A stretch of 64,000 nt of DNA. It comes from Chlorobiota bacterium (GTDB lineage: Bacteria; Bacteroidota; Bacteroidia; Bacteroidales; F082). The notes below the pieces were generated by a model. It saw nothing but the letters and a program-made list of their open reading frames with translations, did no database searches and had not been told where the DNA came from. Location: assembly GCA_013151215.1 (NCBI GenBank), contig JAADIS010000121.1, positions 1 to 64,000 of the forward strand, read 5' to 3'. Both the position numbers and the translations under genes were made by a program. Shown here one piece after another: positions 35,685 to 40,410 of this stretch; position 1 is the first letter of the stretch, and every line of letters starts with the position of its first letter.

Positions 35685-36389
35685 TCAATCTGTTGCATTT
35701 ACATTATTCCAAACCAGCCTGTAGCCGGAGCCATGTACGGTAATTATATTAACATTCCTGTCTGTTGAGAGGTGTTTTCTGAGCTTTGTTATGTAAACGT
35801 CCATACTTCTGGTAGTGAAATAGTTGGCATCGCCCCAGATGCTATTGAGTGCCAGGCTTTTAGGTAATACATTGCCTTTTTGTTCCAGCAGTATCTTTAG
35901 TAATTCCGATTCTTTAGGAGAAAGGGTTTTCCTGGAGTCGTTGGCTTTATCGTATAAAACACGCGATTTAACGTTGAACTTAAACTTCCCGAAGCTAAAG
36001 TTGTCGTTATGGGCTGACAGGGGGCTGCCGCCACGATTAAGTATAGCCTTTATTTTAAACAGGAGGATCTCCGTGTCAAATGGTTTGGTGATATAGTCAT
36101 CAGCTCCTGATTTATAGCCTTTTAAGATATCTTCCCTCAGGGTTTTGGCCGTTATAAAAATGAATGGTGTTTCGGGCTCGCTTTCCTTGATTTGTCTGGC
36201 TATGGTAAACCCATCGACATGGGGAAGCATCACGTCTAAAATTACCAAATCGTATTTTTTGGAGGCAAACTTAGGTAGGGCCAGCATGCCGTCGTCAACC
36301 CAGTCAACATTGAATTCGCTGAGTTCGAGATATGATTTCAATACTTCCCCAAAACTTTTATCATCTTCTACCAAGAGTAACTTTGCCAT
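35685..36389 (-). CDS. OmpR-family response regulator
   Basis: The 234-residue product has a receiver domain (MAKLLLVEDDKSFG, phospho-acceptor Asp52 in VILDVMLPHVDG, the Lys of ITKPFD) and a winged-helix DNA-binding domain (SPKESELLKILLEQKGNVL, RSMDVYITKLRKHLS). The frame extends to a GTG at 36410, but ATG 36389 is the family start. It follows the histidine kinase gene by 10 bases and is its cognate partner. The target genes are not known; the divergent secreted protein at 38236 is a candidate. Confidence 0.92.
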   Translation of the reverse strand: MAKLLLVEDDKSFGEVLKSYLELSEFNVDWVDDGMLALPKFASKKYDLVILDVMLPHVDGFTIARQIKESEPETPFIFITAKTLREDILKGYKSGADDYITKPFDTEILLFKIKAILNRGGSPLSAHNDNFSFGKFKFNVKSRVLYDKANDSRKTLSPKESELLKILLEQKGNVLPKSLALNSIWGDANYFTTRSMDVYITKLRKHLSTDRNVNIITVHGSGYRLVWNNVNATD

Positions 36390-36399
36390 TTTCAACTTA

Positions 36400-38055
36400 T
36401 TAAGATTCACATTTTAATGAAACGGTAAATTTGCTTCCGTTGCCAATTTCACTATCTATTTCAATTTCACCGCCATGGGCGTCAACTATGGCCTTGGCAT
36501 ACGATAATCCAAGGCCGAAACCCTTGATGTTGTGTATGTTGCCGCTAGGTTTGCGATAGAATTTATCGAAAACGTGTTTTTGAACTTCCTTGCTCATGCC
36601 TATGCCGTTGTCGGTAACTTCCAGCAAAAACCTATCCTTTCTCAGGCTTGTGGCCAGAATTATCTCTGGAGGGTTCTCGTTGTATTTTATTGCATTATCG
36701 ATCAAGTTGTTCAGCATGCCGGCAAAATGAAACTCATCAACTTTTATCAAGTGGTGAGAAGCCTTTAGCGAACAGACTATGCGTCCGCCCTTTTCGGAAG
36801 CCCTCAAACTGAAGACCGCCGCCACATTCCCGATAATCTCATGAACATCGGTCTTTTCAAGGTTCAATTTGAAGTCGTGACCATCAATTTGCGCCATCTG
36901 CAACACCTTCTCCACCTGAGAGTTCATGCGTTTGTTTTCTTTCTTTATTAAATCCACATAATAATTCGTCTTCCCTATATCGCCTGCCACTTTTGGCGAT
37001 TCAATGGCTGAGGATGCCAAGCTTATCGTCGCGATAGGTGTCTTGAACTCATGAGTCATGTTATTTATGAAGTCGGACTTGATTTCGGAAATTTTCTTTT
37101 GTTTTTGGATATAATACAGGGTAAAACCGAAAGTCAGTAAAATTATAGTCGTAAAGAGCATTGAGCCAGTGATCAACAAATATACCGACTTATAAATCAT
37201 CGTGTTGGCATTGGGAAAATCAAGCCCTAAAACAGTTGTGTTCCGGAAGATGTCATTGGGGTATAGGCTGGTTTTGTAAGCCATCGGCAAGATGATGTTC
37301 GTGTCGGGATCCGATTTTATCAGTCGGTTGCCTTTTCCCGTATTTGTAAAAAGTTGATAGCTGAAATCCAGACCGATGCCGTTGTTGGTAAGAGATTCCT
37401 TTAATATCTGCCTGAAGTTGTTGCTTTGCGATAAAAATTTCAAACGTTCGTTGTCGAAACTAAATTCCATTACCCATTTATCGATGTTCTCCTGAAACTT
37501 ATTGAGCTTGTCTTCGACTATCTTCTCCTTTACTTTATGGAATTCCATTATTTGTTGCAATGAGTCCAGATGAGATTCAACATTCACTATATCTTGATCA
37601 AAAAATATATCGAGATCTTGAGAAGTACCTTGCTTTTTATCACTGGATATAAGCTTTGTCATTATTTTAAGCCTGCTGAGCTTGTTCGTATTCGTGTCGC
37701 CATAAATTACCACGGTTTTTTCCCCCTCGCTGTCAACAGTGGTAATGGTGCCTGTTAGGTATTGCAAATCGGGAATAGGGATGTTTCCCCCCCCCCCCCT
37801 TGCTAATGAGTCGGCATCGCTGATATTAAAAATAGGTTTTGGGGGCTTTGGCAGGTCTATTTTGTTGTCCATGAATACGAACATCTCGTCGCGCTCGATT
37901 TTATCCACGGTCTTTTTCAGGGCAGCATAAACCATTTTGTCGAAGACCGCTTTCTCCTTCTTTATCGCATAATTTATCCACAGGGCTTGTACCACGATGA
38001 TTCCCAAAAGGCTCAAGGACATTAATATTATTACTATGCGATAGCGTGGTTTCAT
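36400..38055 (-). CDS. Sensor histidine kinase with internal poly-G tract
   Basis: The 551-residue membrane kinase has a first transmembrane helix at residues 7-30 and an extracytoplasmic sensor of about 250 residues. A second helix (LLITGSMLFTTIILLTFGF) is followed by a HisKA domain (NNMTHEFKTPIATISLA, with the phospho-acceptor His) and a HATPase domain with N (DNAIKYNENP), G1 (VTDNGIGMS) and G2 (GFGLGLSYAK) boxes. Residues Arg86-Gly87-90 are encoded by a run of 13 consecutive G, here in frame. Gain or loss of one G would truncate the kinase before its catalytic domains, so it may phase-vary. It is co-transcribed with the response regulator. Confidence 0.92.
   Translation of the reverse strand: MKPRYRIVIILMSLSLLGIIVVQALWINYAIKKEKAVFDKMVYAALKKTVDKIERDEMFVFMDNKIDLPKPPKPIFNISDADSLARGGGGNIPIPDLQYLTGTITTVDSEGEKTVVIYGDTNTNKLSRLKIMTKLISSDKKQGTSQDLDIFFDQDIVNVESHLDSLQQIMEFHKVKEKIVEDKLNKFQENIDKWVMEFSFDNERLKFLSQSNNFRQILKESLTNNGIGLDFSYQLFTNTGKGNRLIKSDPDTNIILPMAYKTSLYPNDIFRNTTVLGLDFPNANTMIYKSVYLLITGSMLFTTIILLTFGFTLYYIQKQKKISEIKSDFINNMTHEFKTPIATISLASSAIESPKVAGDIGKTNYYVDLIKKENKRMNSQVEKVLQMAQIDGHDFKLNLEKTDVHEIIGNVAAVFSLRASEKGGRIVCSLKASHHLIKVDEFHFAGMLNNLIDNAIKYNENPPEIILATSLRKDRFLLEVTDNGIGMSKEVQKHVFDKFYRKPSGNIHNIKGFGLGLSYAKAIVDAHGGEIEIDSEIGNGSKFTVSLKCES
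37787..37799. repeat. 13-base homopolymer (C on plus, G in the gene)
   Basis: An uninterrupted run of 13 C lies inside the histidine kinase gene, in the part coding for the sensor domain. It is the only such homopolymer I noticed in the window. Runs of this length are prone to slipped-strand length change. Confidence 0.9.
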
Positions 38056-38182
38056 TTTTTTTGTTCAGAAGTTCAGAAGTTCAATGGCTCAAAAATACGA
38101 ATCATTTGTTGGCTTGCGTTAACTTTAACCTTTCTTTAACCTTTTTTAACCCAGCTTAACCACTTCAATAACAGCTAATAAA

Positions 38183-38235: not shown

Positions 38236-39189
38236 ATGAAAAAATTATTAACGATTGTTTTTGCGGCTGTATTAAGTGGGTTGATTATTGTTCCACGCCC
38301 CGTTAAAGCTCAGGACGTTAAACCTGATAAAAAGAAAAAAACCATTAGCATTAAAACTGTCAGGGAGGAAAACGGCAAACAGATAGTAACCGATACTACG
38401 TTTACCTTTAGTGGTGATATGGACGAACTTGATTTGGGAAAATCCGGTATATCTAATGATAGCGCGAATATGGATGTTGAAGTCCAGGTAGTTGTTAGTT
38501 CGGAGGGCGAAAATACATCTACAAAACGAGTCGTTGTCATGAATGCTAAAGACGTAAAAGTAGGTGAAGGCGGTAAAAACACAAAAGTCTTCAAATGGAC
38601 TGACAAAGACGGTAACGAAATGGCTTTCAACATTGACGTTGACAAAGATGATCTGGTTTCTGATTTGAACCGGATAGAGGCGGAATTGGTGGCCTCAGGC
38701 AAAGAGCTTGAGGATGAATATCTAATGTTGTACGGAAAGTTGTCCTCCCTCGATTCCCTTAAGAACCTGGCAGATTTTGAAGGTATGGAAAAACTTGCGA
38801 AACTGAACGATTTAGACCTCGTTATCAGTTCTTCTGGGGCCATGCCGCCACATCATCCGGATTTTATGCTGTTTTTCGACGATAATACCGTTTCGGATGT
38901 TGAGCTCAGGGATGCCGGAATAAAAAGCAAACCCGACCGTTTGGAAATTGAGAACATGAATCTTGATATCGATAATGGTGTAGTTGATCTAGAATTTAGC
39001 GTTAAGCAAGAAATAAACCCTAAAGTAGTGGTTTATAATGTGTATGGCGATAAAGTTTTTTCAGGGAAACCAAGCTTGATGAATGGCAACTATCAATTAA
39101 AAATGGATCTGTCCAAAAAGCAGCACGGCACTTATTATTTAATGATCGTTTCAGGAAAGAGTTCTTTTACCAGCCGTATGAAACTATAA
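38236..39189 (+). CDS. Secreted protein with T9SS type A-like C-terminus
   Basis: The 317-residue product has a signal peptide (MKKLLTIVFAAVL to RPVKAQ), a lysine-rich stretch, an acidic beta-rich middle part and helical segments (about residues 135-195). Its roughly 70-residue C-terminus resembles a T9SS type A sorting domain (NPKVVVYNVYGDKVFSG, SKKQHGTYYLMIVSG, FTSRMKL), although the usual PNP motif is not evident. I do not recognise the body. It is divergent from the two-component system, which makes it a possible target or co-sensor. It ends in a terminator. Confidence 0.75.
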   Translation: MKKLLTIVFAAVLSGLIIVPRPVKAQDVKPDKKKKTISIKTVREENGKQIVTDTTFTFSGDMDELDLGKSGISNDSANMDVEVQVVVSSEGENTSTKRVVVMNAKDVKVGEGGKNTKVFKWTDKDGNEMAFNIDVDKDDLVSDLNRIEAELVASGKELEDEYLMLYGKLSSLDSLKNLADFEGMEKLAKLNDLDLVISSSGAMPPHHPDFMLFFDDNTVSDVELRDAGIKSKPDRLEIENMNLDIDNGVVDLEFSVKQEINPKVVVYNVYGDKVFSGKPSLMNGNYQLKMDLSKKQHGTYYLMIVSGKSSFTSRMKL

Positions 39190-39266: not shown

Positions 39267-39654
39267 ATGACTATTCCCTATAATACTTTAGAAATCGCCC
39301 TATTTTTTTCCCTGTTTATACTGACGAAAATCATCTCTGGTTTTAATCCAAAACTACTAACTTGAAATTTGATGAAACGCTTAAAAATTAAACTTGGGGC
39401 AATGCCCAATGTAATTTATACTAATAAAATTAATCTGATTTGAGGAGTATAATAGAGCGGTGCGCTGCGCCTTGAATCTCTATTGTTGGTCAGACTACAA
39501 AGAGGGCGGTGCGCTGCACCATTTTATAATAGGAGTTAATCTTGTTGTGCGATAATTTTTTTTCATTGTGTATTATTAATCTATAATCCTGCGCCTTAGG
39601 ATTGCCAATGATACTACTGTCAAATGATACTGGGCAAAATATAAAATTATAGTT
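39267..39654. other. Gene-free stretch with two near-palindromes
   Basis: No credible ORF is present. Two copies of a 13-base near-palindrome occur 49 bases apart (39459-39471 and 39508-39520), both preceded by agagcggt/agggcggt. They belong to a set of four that bracket this repeat region. Confidence 0.5.
39459..39520. repeat. Left pair of ggtgcgctgcacc near-palindromes
   Basis: ggtgcgctgcgcc (39459-39471) and ggtgcgctgcacc (39508-39520), 49 bases apart, are the reverse complement (one base differs in the first) of the right pair at 40131 and 40182. Confidence 0.75.
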
Positions 39655-39932: not shown

Positions 39933-40135
39933 TAATCCAAAGGTCTAGGTACAAATTAATCCAAAGGTCTTGGTGCAAAATAATCCAAAGGTCTAGGCAT
40001 AAAATAATCCAAAGGTCCAGGTGTAAAATAGTCCAAAGGTCTTGGTGTAAAATAGTCCAAATGTCTTGGTGTAAAATAGTCCAAATGTCTTGGTATAAAT
40101 TAATCCAGGGGTTTGGTATAAATAATCTAAGGTGC
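39933..40135. repeat. 24-bp tandem repeat, nine copies
   Basis: Units begin with taatcc or tagtcc at 39933, 39957, 39981, 40005, 40029, 40053, 40077, 40101 and 40123, with a period of exactly 24 except for a 22-base eighth unit. The consensus is near taatccaaaggtcttggtgt then aaaa. Units differ from each other by a few bases, and in their order the variants grade into one another, as expected from stepwise duplication. The period is a multiple of three and more than one minus frame is open, which creates spurious ORFs. Confidence 0.9.
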
Positions 40136-40194
40136 AGCGCACCGCAATATTTGTAGATATTTTCCATACCAAACAAAAAGAGGTGCAGCGCACC
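40131..40194. repeat. Right pair of ggtgcagcgcacc near-palindromes
   Basis: Two identical copies lie at 40131-40143 and 40182-40194, both followed by g, 51 bases apart. They are inverted relative to the left pair at 39459 and 39508. Confidence 0.8.
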
Positions 40195-40410
40195 GTTCTA
40201 TTAGACATGGGAACAAAACATTCAGATTAAATCAATTGTATAGAGTTCAATTGGTTCGGTTGTGCTTCTTAAGGTCCCTAAACATACAAATGAATGTAGT
40301 CTTATGCACAATAAGGACGTTTGTCATTGTACTGATTGTACTCAGGGTACCAATACTAAATCTGAAGTTGCCAGGATTAGAGTTATTCTCCAATATATAT
40401 GAAAAACGAT
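40195..40410. other. Gene-free spacer 3' of the VOC gene
   Basis: Nothing coding is supported here and no clear terminator with T-tract was found. Confidence 0.35.

Follow-up and report, generated by a model that had tools for sequence, protein, structure and literature searches.

A 13-G tract in the sensor-domain loop of a Bacteroidales histidine kinase: mutation hot spot or phase-variation switch?

The gene for a sensor histidine kinase in an uncultured Bacteroidales bacterium runs through 13 consecutive G, a tract whose length decides in silico whether the full kinase can be translated. The reading we favour, with middling confidence, is that the tract is an incidental mutation hot spot in a tolerant loop, not an evolved switch. 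The DNA analysed, here called the window, is a stretch of 64,000 nucleotides of contig JAADIS010000121.1; the genome to which it belongs (G000) is a 154-contig draft of 3.72 Mb that is 98.6% complete.

The tract and its reading frame

The features on which the analysis turns are as follows, in window coordinates.

37787..37799, minus strand (13 C on the plus strand): 13-G homopolymer, read directly from the sequence
37735..37830, minus strand: hypervariable sensor-domain loop, about residues 76-107, from an alignment and an AlphaFold2 model
36403..38055, minus strand: sensor histidine kinase of 551 aa, from its open reading frame, domain matches and a model
35685..36389, minus strand: OmpR/PhoB-type response regulator, about ten bases downstream of the kinase
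38236..39189, plus strand: divergent secreted protein of 317 aa, with a weak match to Por_Secre_tail (type IX sorting tail)

On the coding strand of the kinase the tract reads AGG-GGG-GGG-GGG-GGA, that is Arg-Gly-Gly-Gly-Gly, and runs from the second base of the Arg codon (codon 86) through three GGG codons to the second base of GGA, whose A is the first base after the tract; the protein around it is DSLA-R-G-G-G-G-NIPIP. The original prediction had described both the run of 13 G and this reading, and the sequence bears it out on each. When tract lengths from 9 to 17 G were simulated, the kinase frame was open at 10, 13 and 16 G only, and every other length led to a stop at codons 99-109, within the periplasmic sensor region and ahead of the catalytic domains; the truncation in the sensor domain that had been predicted for a one-base slip is thus reproduced in silico. 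Two marks of a contingency locus are therefore seen here: a homopolymer of at least 8 G/C in an ORF or a promoter (here the 13 G of the kinase gene) and loss of expression on a change of one unit, the latter in silico only.

A two-component system kept beside a secreted protein

The kinase is predicted, from sequence and model, to have an N-terminal membrane helix and a second one beyond a periplasmic sensor region at about residues 31-285 (some 250 residues); its catalytic domains are HisKA (326-391) and HATPase_c (442-549). It is probably co-transcribed with the response regulator, and the pair, a HisKA and HATPase_c kinase adjoining a regulator with receiver and Trans_reg_C domains, has the make-up of an OmpR-type two-component system. 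Like RprX/RprY of Bacteroidota, it combines a membrane kinase bearing a periplasmic sensor with an OmpR-type regulator after it, and RprY is the best NCBIfam match of the regulator; it differs in that this match, at 249.3 bits, falls under the RprY cut-off of 370 bits, which places it outside RprXY by that measure, and in being kept together with a divergent secreted protein.

The order of secreted protein, divergent kinase and regulator is retained in all ten family orthologues with covered flanks (G002, G004 and eight from other genera; the sister species, G003, is outside this count, its contig breaking off 144 bases upstream of the kinase), so that the link between kinase and secreted gene exceeds chance adjacency. 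The three genes are a conserved unit. That the kinase controls the secreted gene, as the earlier suggestion of joint switching supposes, is something we infer from adjacency.

Between the kinase and the secreted gene lies a short tandem repeat, CTTTAACCTTT, at 38123-38151, possibly an operator with direct repeats. At 39933-40127 the window also holds a tandem array of about eight copies of a 24-bp unit, TAATCCAAAGGTCTTGGTGTAAAA, flanked at 39447-39525 and 40129-40206 by inverted REP-like elements, GGTGCGCTGCGCC.

The loop that holds the tract

An alignment of 25 sequences places the loop among the most variable segments of the kinase, with many gaps and mostly unconserved columns; in the AlphaFold2 model, pLDDT is about 32-46 over the tract segment and below 50 over most of the loop. 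The tract site is the least conserved and lowest-confidence loop of the sensor domain, and the model suggests that this loop is probably disordered. Of the glycine codons in the window only 17% are GGG, which makes several of them in a row improbable under free codon choice, and this improbability in turn suggests a DNA-level process, not a need of the protein, as the source of the tract.

Long G/C runs in the genome

Across the whole genome we counted 21 G/C runs of at least 8 (12 of 8, 6 of 9, 2 of 10 and one of 13), which makes the kinase tract the longest G run and the only one above 10, the next longest being 10. Markov models of order 0 to 5, built from the window, give an expectation per genome of about 9-76 runs of at least 8 and about 0.002-0.08 runs of at least 13; with one such run seen, the tract is a clear length outlier. 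Runs of at least 8 occur in about the number expected by chance, most of the models leave a slight excess from 9 upward, and the genome is not strongly enriched for G runs. One of the two 10-runs, on contig 83, encodes MPTGGGKS, which we take to be an ordinary RecQ Walker motif; this run was ruled out as a second contingency locus on account of that RecQ-like motif. MutS1 and MutL are both present and intact.

The tract site in relatives

The nearest genome, that of the sister species, has a kinase 93% identical to ours; the two genes are 1653 nt each and align without a single indel at 91.1% nucleotide identity. At the tract site, the sister reads CTGGGAAACAAAA (or GCTGGGAAACAAA, depending on how the shared flanking G is assigned), encoding Ser-Trp-Glu-Thr-Lys, and the site is unrelated in sequence in congeners at 61-62% identity and in orthologues further removed. 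The window's own run aside, none of the orthologous kinase loci examined holds a G/C run of at least 8, and maintenance in homologues, which is usual but not obligatory for a contingency locus, is therefore not seen. Absence of the tract from close relatives had been set in advance as an outcome that would count against phase variation, and it is what we found, in the 93%-identical sister and in all orthologues examined. In Campylobacter, however, homologues more than 90% identical can lack a tract (PMC6321876), so that this absence is not decisive.

A scan of GTDB-220 yielded no second genome of this species or of its sister, the sole close congener being PKTD01 (Marinilabiliales bacterium BM719). 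The runs of 12-17 G that we inspected in relatives all lay outside long ORFs; a 13-G run inside a conserved gene is unusual, and a single case cannot show selection. G/C tracts do change length within the genus, as follows from an intergenic poly-C tract with matching flanks that has nine C in the window's genome (contig C11, 8462-8470) and 14 in the sister (contig C17, 19790-19803).

Leader tracts of secreted proteins

G000, G002 and G003 also carry a family of giant secreted proteins that match Sortilin-Vps10 weakly and whose open frames reach about 1750 aa; in their genes an ATG leader of about 17-20 codons is followed by a G-rich or C tract and then by a signal-peptide core. Eight copies were examined: L226 (contig C154), L234 (C127) and L240 (C36) of G000, L227, L233, L239 and L247 of G003, and L228 of G002. 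In every copy the ATG of the leader and the signal-peptide core are in different frames, the shift being +1 in some and -1 in others, and the downstream frames are long and open throughout; six of the tracts are G-rich (two of them interrupted by A) and two are C7. The leader of one copy (L148/L234, G000 contig C127) contains a perfect 16-nt palindrome, TTCCGAGGCCTCGGAA, that is absent from its paralogues. A further secreted gene of G003 (L195/L293, contig 84, 18742-18808) has 11 G between leader and signal peptide, again out of frame, and an unrelated secreted gene has 9 G in frame in both genomes (L142, G000 contig C20; L210, G003 contig C56).

On the simplest reading of their sequences, the leader-tract genes would be candidate phase-variable surface proteins that are mostly off; programmed frameshifting and mis-identified starts are the alternatives. 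They are better candidates for phase variation than the 13-G kinase tract, and the family may be worth more than the tract itself.

Hot spot or switch

Our favoured account of the kinase tract is that a lineage-specific homopolymer would have arisen in an unconstrained, probably disordered loop in the periplasmic sensor domain of an RprX/PhoR-like kinase, and would be tolerated because four glycines are harmless in that loop. Such a run would be expected to gain or lose G far more often than other sites. Each gain or loss of a G would then bring a kinase stop at about codon 100-108, removing the second membrane helix and the HisKA and ATPase domains; the response regulator, which has its own start, might persist unphosphorylated or drop through polarity. 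Since the tract is prone to slippage, occasional kinase-off and revertant cells are to be expected. Most likely these cells are a by-product of the mutation hot spot, not the output of an evolved switch, although both the off-state phenotype and the absence of selection for switching are things that we infer. A point against the hot spot is that the tract is in frame, and its retention at 13 may be the result of selection that favours the ON state, as at a genuine contingency locus.

Phase variation by frameshift is known to affect sensor kinases, a further point against the hot spot. Adaptive phase variation at this tract is possible, and the strongest rival to the hot spot, though we think it doubtful, is a contingency locus in which a selected 13-G switch turns the kinase on and off reversibly by slipped-strand mispairing; we hold with the same reserve that the two-component regulon, perhaps including the divergent secreted protein, would be switched with it. 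At 13 G the tract is longer than the 8 G from which switching is reported in Campylobacter (PMC6321876), its frame outcome in silico is cleanly ON or OFF, and there are precedents in the homopolymer phase variation of the two-component genes flgR and flgS of C. jejuni (PMC3930126) and in the two-component frameshift of Bordetella pertussis (Stibitz 1989, as listed in PMC11868660). The genus, too, has other contingency-like loci, namely the genes with out-of-frame leader, tract and signal peptide; its intergenic poly-C tract of nine or 14 C speaks for changes of tract length, and kinase, regulator and secreted gene have stayed together across the family. Weighing on the other side, the tract is conserved in no relative, even at 93% identity; codon 86 lies mid-domain, whereas the other candidate loci have their tracts in a 5' leader; MutS1 is intact, as is MutL; and the genome has no clear excess of such tracts.

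With flgR and flgS of C. jejuni and bvgS of B. pertussis the tract shares a frameshift-prone homopolymer inside a two-component gene, truncation on a change of one unit and potential reversibility; the run in bvgS is shorter than the present 13-G tract. The flgR tracts are of A/T (PMC3930126). In all these systems variants have been isolated, and those of flgR shown to revert, whereas the present tract is known from one assembly. With the poly-G loci of Campylobacter it shares a poly-G in an ORF at a length above the known switching threshold, and the lack of the tract in close homologues; Campylobacter, in contrast, has many tracts, above chance, where our genome has one run above 10 and about the expected number at 8, and MutS1 is present here. 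In principle, then, the tract would work like a contingency locus, and it is a candidate member of that class only.

In-register replacement of the sister sequence

Compared with the sister, 9 of the 13 bases at the tract differ, against a gene mean of 9%, and yet there is no net change in length, which is not what simple growth by slippage predicts and so counts against the hot spot. There are three ways to read this: insertions and deletions that offset one another and passed the filter of the reading frame, rapid substitution, in one lineage or the other, in a loop free of constraint, and bases called as G in register. The last would make the tract a sequencing or assembly artefact, with 13 G called or assembled over a different true sequence; we consider this unlikely. 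In-register dark-cycle G calls of two-colour Illumina chemistry would be one example. What speaks for it, besides the excess of differences, is that the 13 G replace the sister's CTGGGAAACAAAA while the 1653-nt gene keeps its length throughout, that the genome is a draft in 154 contigs, and that a relative's assembly contains a poly-G run of more than 100. This run (G022 contig 18, from 81680), the source of most of the high G-run counts in that draft, is likely a two-colour sequencing artefact, so that poly-G artefacts probably exist in the group.

As a control, the window and G003 were compared over about 35-36.5 kb of their alignment, 13 ungapped bases at a time. Such stretches differ at 8-9 bases at a few other sites too, in well-conserved DNA: 28234, 33440, 46125 (reverse strand), so that in-register replacement alone is not exceptional and is weakened as proof of an artefact. 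Moreover, the tract sits near the middle of a 72-kb contig whose sequence matches well on both sides, and the other comparable long G runs of the genome mostly have recognisable counterparts in the sister, which makes it less likely that this assembly suffers from poly-G artefacts in general.

Implications

A wider proposal, which we regard as improbable, is that poly-G slippage, beside DNA inversion, serves a member of the Bacteroidales for phase variation, with the tracts of the giant secreted proteins and the 13-G kinase as a regulatory switch above envelope genes. In one paper on phase variation in Bacteroides (PMC3090145), the mechanism described is promoter inversion, and slippage at homopolymers is no more than suggested; a literature search of partial coverage found no report of poly-G phase variation in Bacteroidales. 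Slippage during transcription or translation, with the DNA stable and RNA polymerase or the ribosome slipping so that a fraction of the kinase is truncated and its dosage lowered, has very little to recommend it: a poly-G of this length would be a plausible substrate and lengths other than 10, 13 and 16 do close the frame, but the tract is not conserved as a programmed signal would be.

Under the favoured reading of a tolerated hot spot, a slippage-prone tract can appear in a regulator's tolerant loop within one lineage, and contingency loci could in turn evolve with such tracts as their raw material. If switching at the tract proved true, the whole two-component regulon of an uncultured Bacteroidales bacterium would be bet-hedged by one DNA tract.
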